Below, piece after piece: positions 53,145 through 58,777 of a stretch of 64,000 nt of DNA (positions within the stretch are counted from its first letter, which is position 1; every line of letters begins with the position of its first letter). The notes under the pieces were generated by a model. It was not told the DNA's origin. It searched no databases and saw only the letters and a program-made list of their open reading frames with translations. The stretch lies in contig JAEPML010000009.1 of NCBI GenBank assembly GCA_017643925.1, forward strand, positions 1-64,000, given 5' to 3'. The position numbers and the translations under genes are program-made. This DNA comes from Roseibium sp. GTDB lineage: Bacteria > Pseudomonadota > Alphaproteobacteria > Rhizobiales > Stappiaceae.

Positions 53145-53276
53145 GAAGCGCTCCGGGCGTTGAAACTGTTGGTCTGTCACCAAGGACATCGCCTATCTGG
53201 CTCCGCCAGTCAATTGCTTAAAGAGAGCTGGCCACGCGCTCTTGCAATCGGGCGGCTGCCTTGCTAGCAGTGCAGG

Positions 53277-53376
53277 TGTCTCATGGGGGTGCCCGGCAAT
53301 CGTGGATCGGGCTGAGAGGCGTTCTGCCAACTCCTTGAACCTGATCCGGCTGACACCGGCGGAGGGATTTGAGATG
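53277..53376 (+). promoter_or_regulatory. TPP riboswitch (THI element)
   Basis: The conserved core is present in order: GGGGTGCC (53285 region), GGCTGAGAG (53319 region), CTTGAACCTGATC (53333-53345) and the closing ACCGGCGGAGGGA (53355-53367). P1 can form between TCTCA (53279-53283) and TGAGA (53370-53374). Thiamine pyrophosphate binding would switch off the downstream thiM-thiD-TRAP operon. A second hairpin at the thiM ribosome site may be its output. Confidence 0.93.
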
Positions 53377-53427
53377 GTTACTGACACCAGCTTCAATCAC
53401 ATTCAATCTGGACAGCTGAAAGCGCTT

Positions 53428-53449
53428 CCGCAACCCTTTTGCGGAGGTG
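53428..53449 (+). promoter_or_regulatory. Hairpin at thiM ribosome-binding site
   Basis: CCGCAA-CCCTT-TTGCGG (53428-53444) ends inside the GGAGG ribosome site (53443-53447), nine or so bases before the thiM ATG. It is the likely expression platform, hiding the site when TPP is bound. Confidence 0.55.
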
Positions 53450-53453
53450 GGAA

Positions 53454-54227
53454 ATGAGCCTGTCCGTTGCTGCCTCGACGCAGAGCCTGTCCGCGCAGAC
53501 CGTTTATGAACAGCTGCAGGATGTGCGGCTGAAGGCACCGCGCGTCCACGCAATCACCAATTCCGTCGCGCAGACATTCACGGCAAATGTTCTGCTGGCG
53601 CTCGGAGCGGTGCCGTCCATGACCATTGCACCGGAAGAGGTTGCCGCGTTTGCGTCCAGCTCGGATGCTCTCCTGGTCAACCTGGGAACGCTCGACGATA
53701 CCCGGAAAGCGGCGATACCGGTGGCCATCGAAGCAGCGCGCAGTGCCGGGCGGCCCATTTCCATAGATCCTGTGTTCGTCAACCGGTCGAAGGTCCGTTG
53801 CAGTTTTGCGCGTGCTCTGATGGAAACCGGACCGGATCTGGTGCGCCTGAACGCCGACGAGATGGCAGCCTTGTTCAATGACCGCGCCGAAGTCGACAAT
53901 CTGATTTCGGCAGGGACCGTATTTGCGGTGACCGGTGAAGAAGACAAGATTGAAGGCAACGGCGAGGACTTTCGGCTGCTCAACGGGCATCCGTTGATGG
54001 GGCGTGTCACCGCAACGGGTTGCGCTGGAGGTGCCGTGCTTGCGGCGTTTCTGGCCGTGGGAACCGACAAGGCACTGTCTGCGGCATGTGGTCTCTCGGT
54101 CTTCAATATTGCCGGTGAAATTGCCGCGTCCAACGCTGCGGGGCCTGGAAGCCTGGTGCCCGAGCTGCTGGATGCTCTCTATGCCCTGTCGCTCCGCGAT
54201 ATCGAGAGCCGGTTGAAGACGGCCTGA
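53454..54227 (+). CDS. thiM: Hydroxyethylthiazole kinase
   Basis: 257 residues. ThiM phosphorylates 4-methyl-5-(2-hydroxyethyl)thiazole, salvaging the thiazole half of thiamine. Motifs are HAITNSVAQTFTANVLLALGAVPSM near the N-terminus, LVRLNADEMAAL and the catalytic VTATGCAGGA loop with its Cys. ATG 53454 follows GGAGG. First gene after the TPP riboswitch; thiD follows 31 bp later. Confidence 0.95.
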   Translation: MSLSVAASTQSLSAQTVYEQLQDVRLKAPRVHAITNSVAQTFTANVLLALGAVPSMTIAPEEVAAFASSSDALLVNLGTLDDTRKAAIPVAIEAARSAGRPISIDPVFVNRSKVRCSFARALMETGPDLVRLNADEMAALFNDRAEVDNLISAGTVFAVTGEEDKIEGNGEDFRLLNGHPLMGRVTATGCAGGAVLAAFLAVGTDKALSAACGLSVFNIAGEIAASNAAGPGSLVPELLDALYALSLRDIESRLKTA

Positions 54228-54258
54228 CGCGCGAATTCCCATCCAAATGGAGGTGCTC

Positions 54259-55065
54259 ATGACCGCTATCGCGGTAACTATTGCAGGATCAGACTCCGGA
54301 GGCGGTGCCGGTATTCAGGCCGACCTCAAGTCCTTTTCCGCAAATTGTGTCTATGGTGCTAGTGTTCTGACCGCACTGACCGCACAGAACACGCTGGGCG
54401 TCAATGCGATCCACGACGTGCCGCCTGATTTCGTCCGTGCCCAGATGGATGCGGTCTATTCGGATCTTGCAGTGAAGGCCACCAAAATCGGGATGCTGTC
54501 AGGTGTTCCCATCATCGAAGCGGTCTCTGAAGGTCTCAGGGCTCATCAAACGGGCCCTGTTGTTCTGGATCCGGTGATGGTGGCCGCTTCCGGTGATCCG
54601 CTGCTGGCGGAAAGTGCCGTTGATTGCCTGCAGACCGTGCTTGTGCCGCTTGCCGATGTGATCACGCCAAATCTGCACGAGGCAGCCAGGATGCTTCGGT
54701 GCGACATGGCCTCGACGGAGGATGAAATGCGACGTCAGGCCGAAGACCTCCTGAAGCTCGGGGCAAAGTCGGTTCTTCTGAAAGGCGGTCATGGCACCGG
54801 GGCGGAAAGCTCGGATCTCCTGTTCGATGGTACCGGGAACGAGATCTGGCTCCGCTCGGAACGGATTGCAACGGAAAATACCCACGGAACCGGCTGCACA
54901 CTGTCTTCAGCCATCGCGGCCGGCCTTGCAAAAGGATTGGACCTTGAAACCGCGATCCGCGCGGCCAAGGCCTATATCCAAATGGCGATTGCCGCCGCCG
55001 ATCAACTTGAAATCGGGAGCGGTCATGGGCCGGTCCATCATTTCCATCAGTTCTGGGACAAGTGA
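54259..55065 (+). CDS. thiD: Hydroxymethylpyrimidine/phosphomethylpyrimidine kinase
   Basis: 268 residues, ribokinase fold: AGSDSGGGAGIQADLKSFSA at the N-terminus, VLDPVMVAASGDPLL and THGTGCTLSSAIAA with the catalytic Cys. It makes HMP-phosphate and HMP-pyrophosphate for thiamine synthesis. ATG 54259 follows GGAGGTGCTC. The next gene starts one base after its stop, so the TRAP binding protein is translationally tied to it. Confidence 0.96.
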   Translation: MTAIAVTIAGSDSGGGAGIQADLKSFSANCVYGASVLTALTAQNTLGVNAIHDVPPDFVRAQMDAVYSDLAVKATKIGMLSGVPIIEAVSEGLRAHQTGPVVLDPVMVAASGDPLLAESAVDCLQTVLVPLADVITPNLHEAARMLRCDMASTEDEMRRQAEDLLKLGAKSVLLKGGHGTGAESSDLLFDGTGNEIWLRSERIATENTHGTGCTLSSAIAAGLAKGLDLETAIRAAKAYIQMAIAAADQLEIGSGHGPVHHFHQFWDK

Positions 55066-55066
55066 A

Positions 55067-56179
55067 ATGACTGACAGAGAGGCAGACACAAAGGCACGCT
55101 GGACACGCCGCGGGCTTCTCACCGCGACCGCCGCGGCCGGGGCAGGGGCTCTGGCTGCCCCGGCAATTGCGCAGGGCAGTGAAACGCTCGAGTGGAAAAT
55201 GGTGACATCCTGGCCGAAGAACCTGCCGGGGCCGGGTGTCACGGCGCAGCGGATCGCCGATCAGGTCGGCCTGATGTCGGGCGGCCGCTTCACCATCCGG
55301 CTCTATGCTGCTGGCGAACTGGTGCCGGCACTGGGCGTTTTCGATGCGGTCTCGGCCGGAACTGCCCAGATGGCTCATACCGCGTCGTTCTTCTGGCAAG
55401 GCAAGGTTCCGGCGTCGGTCTTTTTCACGGCTATCCCGTTCGGCCTGCTACCGCATGAGCACATCGCATGGATCGAACGTGGTGGCGGTCAGGAGCTCTG
55501 GGAGGAGCTTTATGCCCCCTTCGGCCTGAAGCCTGTAATGGCCGGCAACACGGGTGTGCAGATGGGCGGTTGGTACAAGTCAGAGCTTCGGGACCTGTCC
55601 AGCCTGAAGGGGCTGAAGATACGGATGCCCGGCCTTGGTGGTGAAGTGATGCGCCGGCTCGGGGCAACGCCGGTGGGGCTGCCCCCGGGTGAGCTCTTCC
55701 AGGCGCTGCAGTCCGGTGTTCTGGATGCAACAGAGTTCCTGGGACCCTGGTCTGACCGGGCCATGGGGTTCCACAAGGTGGCCAAGAACTATTACACACC
55801 GGGTTTCCATGAGCCGAACGGCACGGGTGAAGCCCTGTTCAATGTCGAAGCCCTCAACACCCTGCCGGAGGAATTCCGGGCGATCGTGCTGGAGGCCTGC
55901 CGTGCGGAAAACGGCAGGGCACTTGCGGAAAGCGATTGGGAAAATGCGGGCAGCCTGCAGTTGCTGCAGGAAGAGGACGGCGTCACGGTCAGGCCCTATC
56001 CGGCGGACATTCTGTCCGCCTTGAGGGAGGCAACGGCTGTCGTGCTTGCGGAATTTGCGGAAAAGGACGCGCTTGGCGGGCGCATTTATGAAAGTCACAA
56101 GGCGGCGAAGGATCGACTGGCGCCCTGGAGTGATGTTGCAATGCGCCGCTTCATGGCGGCGCGGGACGCCGCAGGCTGA
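55067..56179 (+). CDS. TRAP transporter solute-binding protein (DctP/TakP-like) in thiamine operon
   Basis: 370 residues. The N-terminus carries a twin-arginine-like signal, WTRRGLLTATAAAG ... APAIAQ. The mature part follows the TRAP DctP family: EWKMVTSWPKNLPGPG, AAGELVPALGVFDAV, FFWQGKVPAS, GVQMGGWYKSELR and GLKIRMPGLGGEV, with the conserved Arg that binds carboxylates in this last segment. The closest resemblance is to TakP-type 2-oxoacid binders. It starts one base after thiD and is followed by a terminator, so it is under TPP-riboswitch control. No DctQ or DctM membrane genes are nearby; a thiamine precursor ligand is inferred. Confidence 0.88.
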   Translation: MTDREADTKARWTRRGLLTATAAAGAGALAAPAIAQGSETLEWKMVTSWPKNLPGPGVTAQRIADQVGLMSGGRFTIRLYAAGELVPALGVFDAVSAGTAQMAHTASFFWQGKVPASVFFTAIPFGLLPHEHIAWIERGGGQELWEELYAPFGLKPVMAGNTGVQMGGWYKSELRDLSSLKGLKIRMPGLGGEVMRRLGATPVGLPPGELFQALQSGVLDATEFLGPWSDRAMGFHKVAKNYYTPGFHEPNGTGEALFNVEALNTLPEEFRAIVLEACRAENGRALAESDWENAGSLQLLQEEDGVTVRPYPADILSALREATAVVLAEFAEKDALGGRIYESHKAAKDRLAPWSDVAMRRFMAARDAAG

Positions 56180-56187
56180 TCAGAGGT

Positions 56188-56218
56188 GCCGCGGCCGTCC
56201 TTTGCCGCGGCTTCTTGT
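56188..56218 (+). terminator. Terminator of thiMD-TRAP operon
   Basis: Arms GCCGCGGC/GCCGCGGC with an 8-base loop, followed by TTCTTGTT, just after the TRAP gene stop. Confidence 0.6.
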
Positions 56219-57060
56219 TATTCCGCGACAGTCTTCTGGGTTTGGGTTCCCAATCCCGAGATTCCCAATGTCATGACGTCTCCCGGCTTCAGGAAAACCG
56301 GTGGTTTCATGCCCATGCCGACGCCTGGGGGTGTCCCGGTCGTGATCACGTCGCCAGGTTCCAGTTCCATGATCGTCGACAGATAGGCGACGATTTCCCG
56401 GACTGAAAAGATCATCGTTGATGTGTTGCCGGTCTGTCGCCGCTCACCATTCACATCCAGAAACAGGTCCAGGTTCTGGGGATCAGCGATTTCGTCTGCT
56501 GTTGCAACGAAGGGGCCAAGCGGGCCGAAGGTCGGGGCGCTCTTACCCTTGGTCCATTGGCCCGTGCCTTCCAGTTGCCAGGCACGTTCTGAAACGTCGT
56601 TGCAGACCAGGTAGCCGCCCACATACTCGAGCGCGTCGGCCTCGGAGACTTGCCAGGCAGGCCTGGAGATCACGAAGGCCAGTTCGACTTCCCAATCAAG
56701 TTTCGTAGATCCTGCAGGAACACGCACGTCGTCGTCCGGGCCGCAGATGCTCGAGGGTGCTTTTGTGAACACCACCGGTTCTGCCGGAATGGGCATGCCG
56801 GCTTCTTCAGCGTGATCCCGGTAGTTCAGACCGATCGCAATGAAATGGCCGGGTCGGGCAATCGGGGAACCAAGACGTGGCGAGCCCTCGACGACCGGCA
56901 AGTCGGAAGCGTCAAGCTTGGCGAGACTGGACAAGGTTTCTTCGGAATATGCCGATGCGTTCAGATCATCGATATGCTCGGAAAGGTCGCGAAGTGTACC
57001 GTCCGGGCCCAAGAGGCCGGGTTTTTCGGCGCCGACGGCACCGTAACGAATGAGCTTCAT
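56218..57060 (-). CDS. Fumarylacetoacetate hydrolase family protein
   Basis: 280 residues. The C-terminal FAH domain holds the metal ligands in LDWEVELAFVI (two Glu) and YLVCNDVSERAWQ (Asp), plus GTPPGVGMGMKPPVFLKPGD. Family members cleave or decarboxylate beta-keto acids, for example 2,4-diketo-3-deoxy-L-fuconate or ureidoglycolate. AGAGG precedes the start. The substrate is not clear; the neighbour on the other strand is a FadL-type porin sharing the long promoter region. Confidence 0.9.
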   Translation of the reverse strand: MKLIRYGAVGAEKPGLLGPDGTLRDLSEHIDDLNASAYSEETLSSLAKLDASDLPVVEGSPRLGSPIARPGHFIAIGLNYRDHAEEAGMPIPAEPVVFTKAPSSICGPDDDVRVPAGSTKLDWEVELAFVISRPAWQVSEADALEYVGGYLVCNDVSERAWQLEGTGQWTKGKSAPTFGPLGPFVATADEIADPQNLDLFLDVNGERRQTGNTSTMIFSVREIVAYLSTIMELEPGDVITTGTPPGVGMGMKPPVFLKPGDVMTLGISGLGTQTQKTVAE

Positions 57061-57517
57061 GTATACCTCTTTCTTTTATATATTATGTAGAGGATCCAGT
57101 TTTTGATGCCTTTTGACAAGGCCGGAATGCCGTTTAGGCGTTCGGTTGCTCGAACCAGCGGAGCTGTTTTTCTCCAATGATACCCACAGGTTACCTTAGG
57201 GTACCTGTGGCAAAGCAGCAACGGCAAGGTGGAAAGTTACGTTTCCGTAAGCTGAAGGTCTATTTGCTCATTTTTTGTGCAAAAGAGTGAGCGTGTGTCA
57301 GTCACGTGACAAACACCCCCTGAACTGAAGCGAAAATCGACACGTTGCGCTCGAGCGCCGTTTCTCGCAGCCGTTTTACTCGACTTTTTGCGCTGCAGCA
57401 TGCGTGTTTTGCCAAAAGGTCAAAATTATATTTCAGTTGAAACCGCATTCGTTCTCCGAAAAGCCTGTGTCAAGAAGTCATGGCTCCTCAGATGGCAAGG
57501 AGATGGGAGAAAACGCA
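57061..57517. other. Divergent promoter region FAH/fadL
   Basis: 457 bp, no gene seen. It contains a 27-bp inverted repeat at 57184-57210 and a perfect 10-bp palindrome GTCACGTGAC at 57301-57310; the fadL leader (57400-57517) is AT-rich at first, and the minus-strand -10-like TATATA lies near the FAH start. Confidence 0.5.
57184..57210. promoter_or_regulatory. 27-bp inverted repeat, candidate operator
   Basis: Arms CCACAGGT and ACCTGTGG are perfect 8-bp matches, with two further C-G pairs inside, centred between the FAH and fadL genes. Confidence 0.5.
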
Positions 57518-58777
57518 ATGCTGTGGGCAAATAAAAAGTCAGTATTATTTACAAGTACTGCAATAGCTGTATCAATGATCGCACAGGTGGCGAATTCGGG
57601 TGGATTCGCGCTAAGAGAGCAGAGCTCCTATTTTCAGGGCATGTCTTTTGCCGGATACGGGACGTCTGGAGACTCGATCTCCTCCATGTTCTGGAACCCC
57701 GCTTCGTTGATCGGGGCGCAACAGGGACTGACGGTTGAAGCGCATAACTCGCTGATTATTCCGTATTCCGAGATCAACGGAACGCTTTCGGGCGGTTTTC
57801 TCGGCTCGTCCTCGATCGGAAGTGGCGACATCGCGTCAGATGCCTTCATTCCGGCCTCCTACGCGGCCTATCGATTGAATGACCAGTGGATCTTCGGTGT
57901 CGGCATCAATGCTCCCTTCGGTTTGACAACGAAACCGGAGCAAAACTGGGCCGCGCAGTTCTATTCCAGGACGTCGAAGGTGTTTTCGCTGAATGTCAAT
58001 CCGACGGTCACCTACCAGATCAATGACATGATTGCCGTGGCTGCCGGTGTGCAGGTTCAGTATCTCGATGTCAGCCTGAAATCGGCCGACGCCACGTCTG
58101 CAGGCTTTGCGCGTTCAAACGAGATCTCCGGTGACGACATCGGCTATGGCGTGACCGCGGGTATCACAGTCAAACCCTTTGATGGCACCGAGTTCGGCCT
58201 TGGATATCGCTCCGGCGTGTCTCACAAGCTGAATGGAGATCTCTATGCCAGCGGTGCAACGAGTGCCATCAGCCTGGGTGTGATCACACCGGACATGGTC
58301 AACTTTTCCGCCAAGCAGAAGATCAATGACAAGCTTCGTGTTCTGGGTACGGTCGAGTGGACCAACTGGAGCCGCCTCAAGGCGCCGCGCGCGATCTCGG
58401 ACACGACGGGGGCCGCGCTGACGACCCTCCACTTCAATTATGATGATGGCTGGTTCTTCTCGCTGGGCGGCGAGTACGATTACAATGACAAGCTGACATT
58501 CCGTGCAGGTCTGGGCTACGAAATCTCCCCGATCGATGAAGAAATCCGTTCCACCCGCCTGCCGGACAACAATCGCTGGTGGCTATCGGCTGGTGCGAGC
58601 TACGATTTCAACAAGCACCTCTCGTTTGATCTCGGCTACACCCACATCATTCCGGAATCCACGAAGATCAACATCGATTCCAGTCACCAGGATTACAACG
58701 CAGCGTTTGGGACCTATACCGCCGATGTCGACAGCCATGTCAACATCATCAGCGCGTCCCTGCGCTACAGGTTCTGA
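57518..58777 (+). CDS. FadL/OmpP1/TodX family outer-membrane transporter
   Basis: 419 residues: signal peptide to about residue 27, then GGFALREQSSYFQGMSFAG, the hatch-domain entry motif, and MFWNPASL, hallmark of FadL proteins. The remainder alternates as beta-barrel strands and ends in a Phe (SLRYRF), the barrel-assembly signature. It lets hydrophobic molecules such as fatty acids diffuse through the outer membrane. ATG 57518 follows GGGAGAAAA. A strong terminator follows. Confidence 0.93.
   Translation: MLWANKKSVLFTSTAIAVSMIAQVANSGGFALREQSSYFQGMSFAGYGTSGDSISSMFWNPASLIGAQQGLTVEAHNSLIIPYSEINGTLSGGFLGSSSIGSGDIASDAFIPASYAAYRLNDQWIFGVGINAPFGLTTKPEQNWAAQFYSRTSKVFSLNVNPTVTYQINDMIAVAAGVQVQYLDVSLKSADATSAGFARSNEISGDDIGYGVTAGITVKPFDGTEFGLGYRSGVSHKLNGDLYASGATSAISLGVITPDMVNFSAKQKINDKLRVLGTVEWTNWSRLKAPRAISDTTGAALTTLHFNYDDGWFFSLGGEYDYNDKLTFRAGLGYEISPIDEEIRSTRLPDNNRWWLSAGASYDFNKHLSFDLGYTHIIPESTKINIDSSHQDYNAAFGTYTADVDSHVNIISASLRYRF

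Follow-up and report, generated by a model that had tools for sequence, protein, structure and literature searches.

An orphan TRAP solute-binding protein of the thiMD operon, a possible receptor for a carboxylated thiazole precursor of thiamine

The window analysed here is the 64,000-nucleotide stretch of contig JAEPML010000009.1 of Roseibium sp. (assembly GCA_017643925.1). On its forward strand, a thiamine pyrophosphate (TPP) riboswitch is followed by thiM, thiD and the gene of an orphan solute-binding protein (SBP) of the tripartite ATP-independent periplasmic (TRAP) transporters. The linkage of this SBP to thiamine genes is general and extends far beyond the one window, and the SBP may be a receptor for a thiazole carboxylate. 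The riboswitch aptamer (THI element; 53275..53385) matches RF00059 over the full model length, with 61.6 bits against a gathering score of 54.3, and is the sole Rfam match in the window at the gathering threshold. The next gene is thiM (53454..54227), encoding hydroxyethylthiazole kinase, whose product matches PF02110, lies above the cut-off of the equivalog NF006830 and scores under that of the older TIGR00694. It is followed by thiD (54247..55065, with an alternative possible start at 54259), encoding the kinase of hydroxymethylpyrimidine (HMP) and its phosphate HMP-P, with 331.7 bits to the equivalog TIGR00097. The SBP gene itself (55067..56179) belongs to a thi-linked clade; its product matches PF03480, the DctP family, with 155.2 bits against a cut-off of 23.4, and has a twin-arginine type signal.

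The stop codon of thiD occupies 55063-55065 and the SBP begins with an ATG at 55067, so that the two genes are adjacent with a one-base gap. A sequence-only reading of this DNA had described a riboswitch before thiM and thiD, a DctP-type SBP one base after thiD, a terminator after the SBP and no TRAP membrane subunits beside it, all of which we recovered. It had also called the SBP “fused” to the thiMD operon, which is wrong, because the reading frames are separate. The terminator-like hairpin (56188..56211), G+C-rich with a T-rich tail, is a consensus match only and is weak on its own, since the scanned stretch has 4 such sites where 2.8 would be expected. The neighbouring genes include no recognisable dctQ or dctM, and a scan of 53180-56300 for promoter-like sites gave none. 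Among 12 aligned leaders of the genus, the riboswitch aptamer is conserved and the stretch from the aptamer to thiM is poorly conserved. The predicted leader fold is not better than shuffles (z -0.46).

How widely is the SBP linked to thiM and thiD? In the family, thiM is present in 72 of 87 genomes, two of which (G016, G083) have a distant thiM type only. The SBP lies directly behind thiM-thiD, on the same strand, in all 70 family genomes with the window's thiM type, as established by reading 64 of the loci and from coordinates for the other 6 (G014, G017, G021, G022, G025, G026). The SBP is split over two frames in G003 (L075) and has an early stop in G066 (L027), and neither thiM nor a close SBP was found in G048 and G058 of the window's genus. 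In the order sample, the SBP is matched at E 1e-112 or better in 78 of 397 genomes, 20 of which belong to the window's family. The loci of 40 of the other 58 were examined: 37 place the SBP behind thiD, mostly in the order thiM-thiE-thiD-SBP, with 2 reaching the contig end before thiM, and the remaining 3 are takPQM sets without thi genes. The class sample of 385 genomes gave 9 matches besides the window's, all of them thi-linked. The SBP lies behind thiD in 5 of these, behind thiM in 1 and before thiM-thiE(-thiD) in 3 (L214-L216; no thiD was seen in L214).

The same arrangement is found in named genomes. Among the best 80 of 265 relatives, thiM and thiD lie upstream of the SBP in 79, and thiD alone in 1, at a contig end; many of the 80 are genomes already in the family, order and class counts. 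Because they were retrieved by patterns that included Asn242-Gly243 or the stretch at residues 99-100, these loci count for the linkage and not for the residue signature. The carriers include Roseibium aggregatum IAM 12614, Pannonibacter phragmitetus, Pseudovibrio ascidiaceicola, Rhodobium orientis, Ahrensia sp. R2A130 and Thermopetrobacter sp. TC1. The DctQ and DctM queries used matched in none of the 80 loci. Each of the 13 order loci scanned has the TPP riboswitch; it was also detected in 11 of another 12 thi loci (none was found in L214), among which L203, L211, L218 and L220 are without this SBP clade.

The thi-linked SBPs group together in a 106-SBP tree, as a single clade of 81 rows (Shimodaira–Hasegawa-like approximate likelihood-ratio support, 99) that is separate from the SBPs whose genes adjoin dctQM and from five solved sequences. 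Four clade rows labelled “none” are thi-linked once the wider context is considered. The tree comes from a quick search without bootstrap, and because its deepest forks are not resolved we describe the clade as apart from, and not as sister to, the TakQM-linked SBPs. The evidence for a clade of orphan TRAP receptors tied to thiamine operons is good. Among the closest known systems are TakP of Rhodobacter sphaeroides, a 2-oxoacid TRAP receptor (PDB 2hzk, 2hzl), and its relatives 7ug8, 4pet, 5cm6 and 4yic/4yzz. The SBP shares with this group the fold, about 34-41% identity in the structure match, Arg177 and Glu214, and the long C-terminal helix of its AlphaFold model (mean predicted local distance difference test score, 81). 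The best Foldseek matches of the model are 7ug8, 4yic, 5cm6 and 4pet, followed by 4yzz and 2hzk. Unlike TakP, the SBP has no adjacent takQM and stands in a riboswitch-led thi operon.

Further differences lie in the binding pocket. In TakP, Arg177 forms a salt bridge to the carboxylate and Tyr100 a hydrogen bond, while the cation is held by Gln156, Glu214, the main chain of Trp215 and Glu240, with Tyr99 bonded to Glu240 (PMC1839085). We use the TakP numbering, which agrees with the aligned TakP sequence, and made the counts over 81 distinct thi-linked SBPs with a length of 300 residues or more, the window SBP included. The carboxylate-binding Arg177 and the Glu214 residue are present in 81/81. 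In contrast to TakP, Tyr99 is found in 0/81 and is replaced by Phe, Leu, Ile, Met or Val; position 100 is Phe in 63/81 and Tyr in 18/81, position 215 is Phe in 75/81, and Asn242, Gly243 and Glu246 each occur in 81/81. The 12 SBPs encoded beside DctQM have Tyr99 in 10, Tyr100 in 12, Asn242 and Gly243 in none and Glu246 in 3, and the Asn242-Gly243 pair occurs in 0/5 PDB sequences. The window SBP has Phe99 and Phe100, with the cation-site residues Gln156, Glu214 and Glu240 all present.

The signature reaches further out. We examined 38 more thiM regions, mostly picked for a thiM without a strong SBP match, and in 12 of them the protein encoded behind thiD is an SBP of greater divergence (42-53% identity; L193-L201, L208, L224, L230, with L197 in two pieces). 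In 11 of 11 SBPs found through thiM, Asn242, Gly243 and Glu246 are present with Phe or Leu at 99, and Arg177 is present in 10, with a gap in L208. Taken together, the kept Arg177 and Glu214, the changed walls and uneven cation residues suggest that the site still expects a carboxylate, with pocket walls unlike those of the 2-oxoacid receptors.

Next, we investigated which thiamine precursors the carriers make. A joined ThiG-ThiC query at E 1e-20 was applied to 80 chosen genomes, 69 of which carry an SBP of the thi-linked clade (a thi neighbour was seen in 68; the G182 locus stops at a contig edge). ThiC only was found in 18 of these 69, ThiG only in 4, both in 7 and neither in 40, a count that covers SBP genomes and has no SBP-free background for the ThiG rate. 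The 18 ThiC-only genomes represent 11 families and have a completeness of at least 94% (in G124, ThiC lies in two contig-edge pieces), and the 4 ThiG-only genomes come from 2 families. This excess of ThiC-only genomes is unusual, because thiazole auxotrophs are called rare in a coastal survey (PMC10881298), and because of it a pyrimidine ligand fits badly.

In G108, G245 and G462, all with a completeness of 100%, ThiC is encoded directly behind the SBP, and ThiG was not found with the same query. The order thiM-thiE-thiD-SBP-thiC, with thiC assigned by Pfam, occurs in L165 (G108), L161 (G462) and L295 (Thermopetrobacter sp. TC1), which we count as Thermopetrobacter sp. TC1 and one second genome, since L165 and L295 are probably one genome. 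With thiC in the operon, thiE present and no ThiG found, such cells would make the pyrimidine and join it, and would thus need the thiazole from outside. In these loci (L165 2961-8722, L161 3103-8642, L295 1566-7107) the unit is riboswitch-led, and thiM and thiD are strongly diverged (34-37% identity).

Which thiazole carries a carboxylate? Among the vitamers named in PMC10881298, 5-(2-hydroxyethyl)-4-methyl-1,3-thiazole-2-carboxylate (cHET) is the one with both. Sub-picomolar cHET suffices for the growth of an Escherichia coli thiG mutant, which requires more than 100 nM when given hydroxyethylthiazole (HET) instead, the phosphate cHET-P is a ThiE substrate, and the use of cHET needs ThiM in a picoeukaryotic alga (PMC5899164; the cHET in that work was bought commercially). 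By analogy, the ring nitrogen beside the carboxylate of a thiazole-2-carboxylate resembles the keto oxygen of a 2-oxoacid, from which we infer that the compound could fit the pocket.

We therefore weighed the following explanation and give it slightly better than even credence: the SBP is a periplasmic TRAP receptor, related to TakP, that would capture cHET and hand it to a shared TakQM-type pair, with ligand, partner and TPP control all putative. At low TPP, the riboswitch would permit expression of the thiM-thiD-SBP unit. The SBP would then import the thiazole through a TakQM-type pair that is encoded elsewhere and shared with a TakP-type receptor. ThiM would phosphorylate the imported thiazole, ThiD would make HMP pyrophosphate (HMP-PP), and ThiE, encoded in another riboswitch operon of the window's genome, would join the thiazole and pyrimidine halves. 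The sequence-only reading had proposed a new precursor uptake route through a shared membrane complex; the linkage, the rearranged operons, the clade and the arginine support this proposal, except for a pyrimidine as the precursor (18 versus 4).

Tentatively, and with a little less than even confidence, we suggest that the SBP is the high-affinity importer missing so far for cHET, and the first vitamin-precursor receptor of the TRAP type: an orphan clade, found in numerous families of the Alphaproteobacteria, derived from a 2-oxoacid-type receptor and recruited into the thiMED operon, that would place the thiazole 2-carboxylate in the carboxylate-plus-keto site and use a shared TakQM pair. TRAP transporters are not known to handle vitamin B1, and our literature search, which covered open-licence papers, found no description of a TRAP system for a thiamine precursor. 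ThiW, the predicted thiazole transporter of Gram-positive bacteria, is an integral membrane protein without a periplasmic receptor. The thiW gene carries a TPP/HMP-PP riboswitch tandem and would have TPP-riboswitch control and the uptake of a thiazole in common with the SBP unit. The transport genes tabulated in the marine survey cover vitamin B1 and pyrimidine vitamers, and that table names none for thiazoles (PMC10881298). With a thiazole receptor identified, thiazole salvage could be scored from genomes, and the known TRAP substrates would extend to vitamin precursors. Such a receptor would also show clearly that an orphan TRAP receptor can borrow its membrane pair.

Several observations weigh against cHET uptake. 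The window's genome has ThiG, and ThiC was not found with the joined query at E 1e-20, so that it has no strict need of thiazole. The 40 genomes with neither protein and the missing background of the 18-to-4 comparison also count here. thiM often occurs without this SBP, as it is present in 177 of 397 order genomes, and no SBP was found in 16 of the 38 further thiM regions, some of which end at a contig edge (L202, L204-L207, L210, L212, L218-L223, L226, L227, L229). In the pocket, Gln156 is kept in 58/81 and lost in 23/81, and position 240 is Glu in 59/81 and Lys in 22/81; among the 11 diverged SBPs, Lys240 occurs and Gln156 is lost in 10 each. Some members of the clade may have no cation, or a substitute for it. 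The change from Glu240 to Lys combined with loss of Gln156 resembles a lysine taking the place of the cation, but only 2 independent pairs lie on supported tree branches, and we make no such claim.

A further case on this side is one genus, g7, whose SBPs fall inside the thi-linked clade. Its loci (L084-L097) keep the Lrp gene and the SBP but have lost the thiM and thiD that would lie between these two, and the genes for the molybdenum hydroxylase, EamA protein, Lrp and SBP stand in place without thiMD in 14/14. Thirteen of the 14 genomes are without thiM and 1 has the distant type only, and a scan of 11 g7 loci detected no TPP riboswitch. Their 14 SBPs keep Arg177, Gln156, Glu214, Asn242, Gly243 and Glu246 in 14/14, with Ala99 in 13/14. 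ThiG is present in all 7 g7 genomes tested, as it is in G048 and G058, which have no thiM-SBP pair. Genus g7 is a natural case of a receptor uncoupled from thiazole salvage. The sequence-only reading had named separation of the SBP from thiMD in all relatives, together with expression free of TPP control, as an outcome that would speak against it; the two are linked in 70/70 family genomes with the window's thiM type, and g7 keeps the SBP after the loss of thiMD.

Could the SBP serve another thiamine-related solute, such as uncharged HET, a pyrimidine like HMP, or thiamine itself? The same thi linkage and riboswitch evidence applies to these, the window's genome without ThiC needs the pyrimidine, and 40 of 69 SBP genomes lack both ThiC and ThiG. 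We nevertheless consider this unlikely. The window's genome has 3 THI elements, which precede thiMD-SBP, an ABC (ATP-binding cassette) permease with an NMT1/THI5-type binding protein, and thiO-thiG-thiE. It thus already has a riboswitch-linked system of a type tied to pyrimidines (thiY; PMC10881298), and ThiC-only genomes outnumber ThiG-only ones. Moreover, HET, HMP and thiamine have no carboxylate, whereas the TakP carboxylate arginine is kept throughout the clade. Of the candidate ligands listed in the sequence-only reading, the carboxylated thiazole fits best and the pyrimidine is disfavoured by the ThiC/ThiG content.

A receptor for 2-oxoacids or other organic acids, like TakP, might be placed among thi genes through the 2-oxoacid need of TPP enzymes or 2-oxoacid supply to the synthesis of 1-deoxy-D-xylulose 5-phosphate. 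The close solved relatives are all TakP-type, Arg177, Glu214 and, mostly, Gln156 and Glu240 are kept, and g7 retains the SBP without thiMD. We regard this explanation as rather improbable in view of the clade-specific pocket changes (Tyr99 0/81, Asn242-Gly243 81/81) and of the genomes that carry thiC in the operon, gave no ThiG match and need thiazole. In addition, the same genomes hold TakPQM sets besides; the window's genome has 3, whose SBPs are 42-45% identical to the window SBP. Finally, other transporter types occupy the same slot.

Four loci (L203, L211, L220, L221) illustrate this slot behind thiD. L203 (6829-9692) and L211 (568-3356) have a complete TRAP system behind a riboswitch-led thiM-thiE-thiD, made up of a DctQM fusion with a DctP from a different subfamily. 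The L203 and L211 versions are 63% identical to each other and are a second, separate TRAP type in the thi operon, which has the operon position and riboswitch of the SBP but a membrane part of its own. In L220 and L221, an NMT1/THI5-type ABC binding protein lies behind thiM-thiE-thiD; in L221 its ABC ATPase and permease were confirmed as well. This ThiXYZ-type system, riboswitch-linked also in the window's genome, differs from the SBP in being an ABC transporter with an unrelated, pyrimidine-associated binding protein (PMC10881298). The presence of different transporters in one slot strongly hints that the slot serves precursor uptake.

If the SBP is a cHET receptor, which membrane pair would it use? 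TakQM is a plausible partner. A TakM-type DctM is present in 10 of 10 small SBP genomes examined, with coordinates pointing to one in G020 and G027. DctM matches number 40 in the window's genome, spread over a smaller number of genes, and none of the genome's 3 THI elements precedes a dctQM, so that the unlinked, riboswitch-controlled pair anticipated by the sequence-only reading did not turn up there. In G108, G245 and G462, just two TakP-family SBPs were found, one of them thi-linked; the other one in G108 sits with its own QM. The takQM pairs without a recognised SBP in L318, L320 and L321 could be partners of the SBP, but those genomes have more TakP-family SBPs. Two TakP-type SBP genes stand in a row before one dctQ-dctM pair in L181 (3673-8501) and L183 (3494-8428), and sharing of a membrane pair thus looks possible in the TakP family. 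TRAP membrane genes also lie, divergently, beside the SBP-first thi operons L215 (3080-5021) and L216 (6722-8554). In L215 they are a dctQ-dctM pair with DctQ confirmed, and the DctM of L216 is 72% identical to that of L215; they may be dedicated partners of the SBP in that lineage.

In the window, the thi-SBP unit is flanked upstream by genes for a molybdenum hydroxylase, an EamA protein and an Lrp-type regulator, and downstream by those for a fumarylacetoacetate (FAA) hydrolase and a FadL-type porin. That the SBP is a passenger of this block—which, with a short-chain dehydrogenase/reductase (SDR), is conserved over several families and in g7 persists around the SBP without thiMD—and unrelated to thiamine is very improbable because of the rearranged operons, in which the SBP follows thiD where most of the block is not seen nearby (for example L155, L161, L165, L167, L171, L172), precedes thiM (L214-L216) or lies between thiD and thiC (L295, L309, L161, L165).

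Further thiM arrangements were observed. The thi operon holds two tandem thiM-like genes in L170 (1999-3542) and L179 (1963-3527), and the second, distant thiM type stands in a thiC-thiM-thiE unit without this SBP in L078 (3394-6565) and L080 (3179-6398). The FadL/TodX-type outer-membrane channel of the window (57404-58777) is also found close to the thi-SBP unit in many other families, and may be either the matching outer-membrane pore or a mere part of the conserved gene block.

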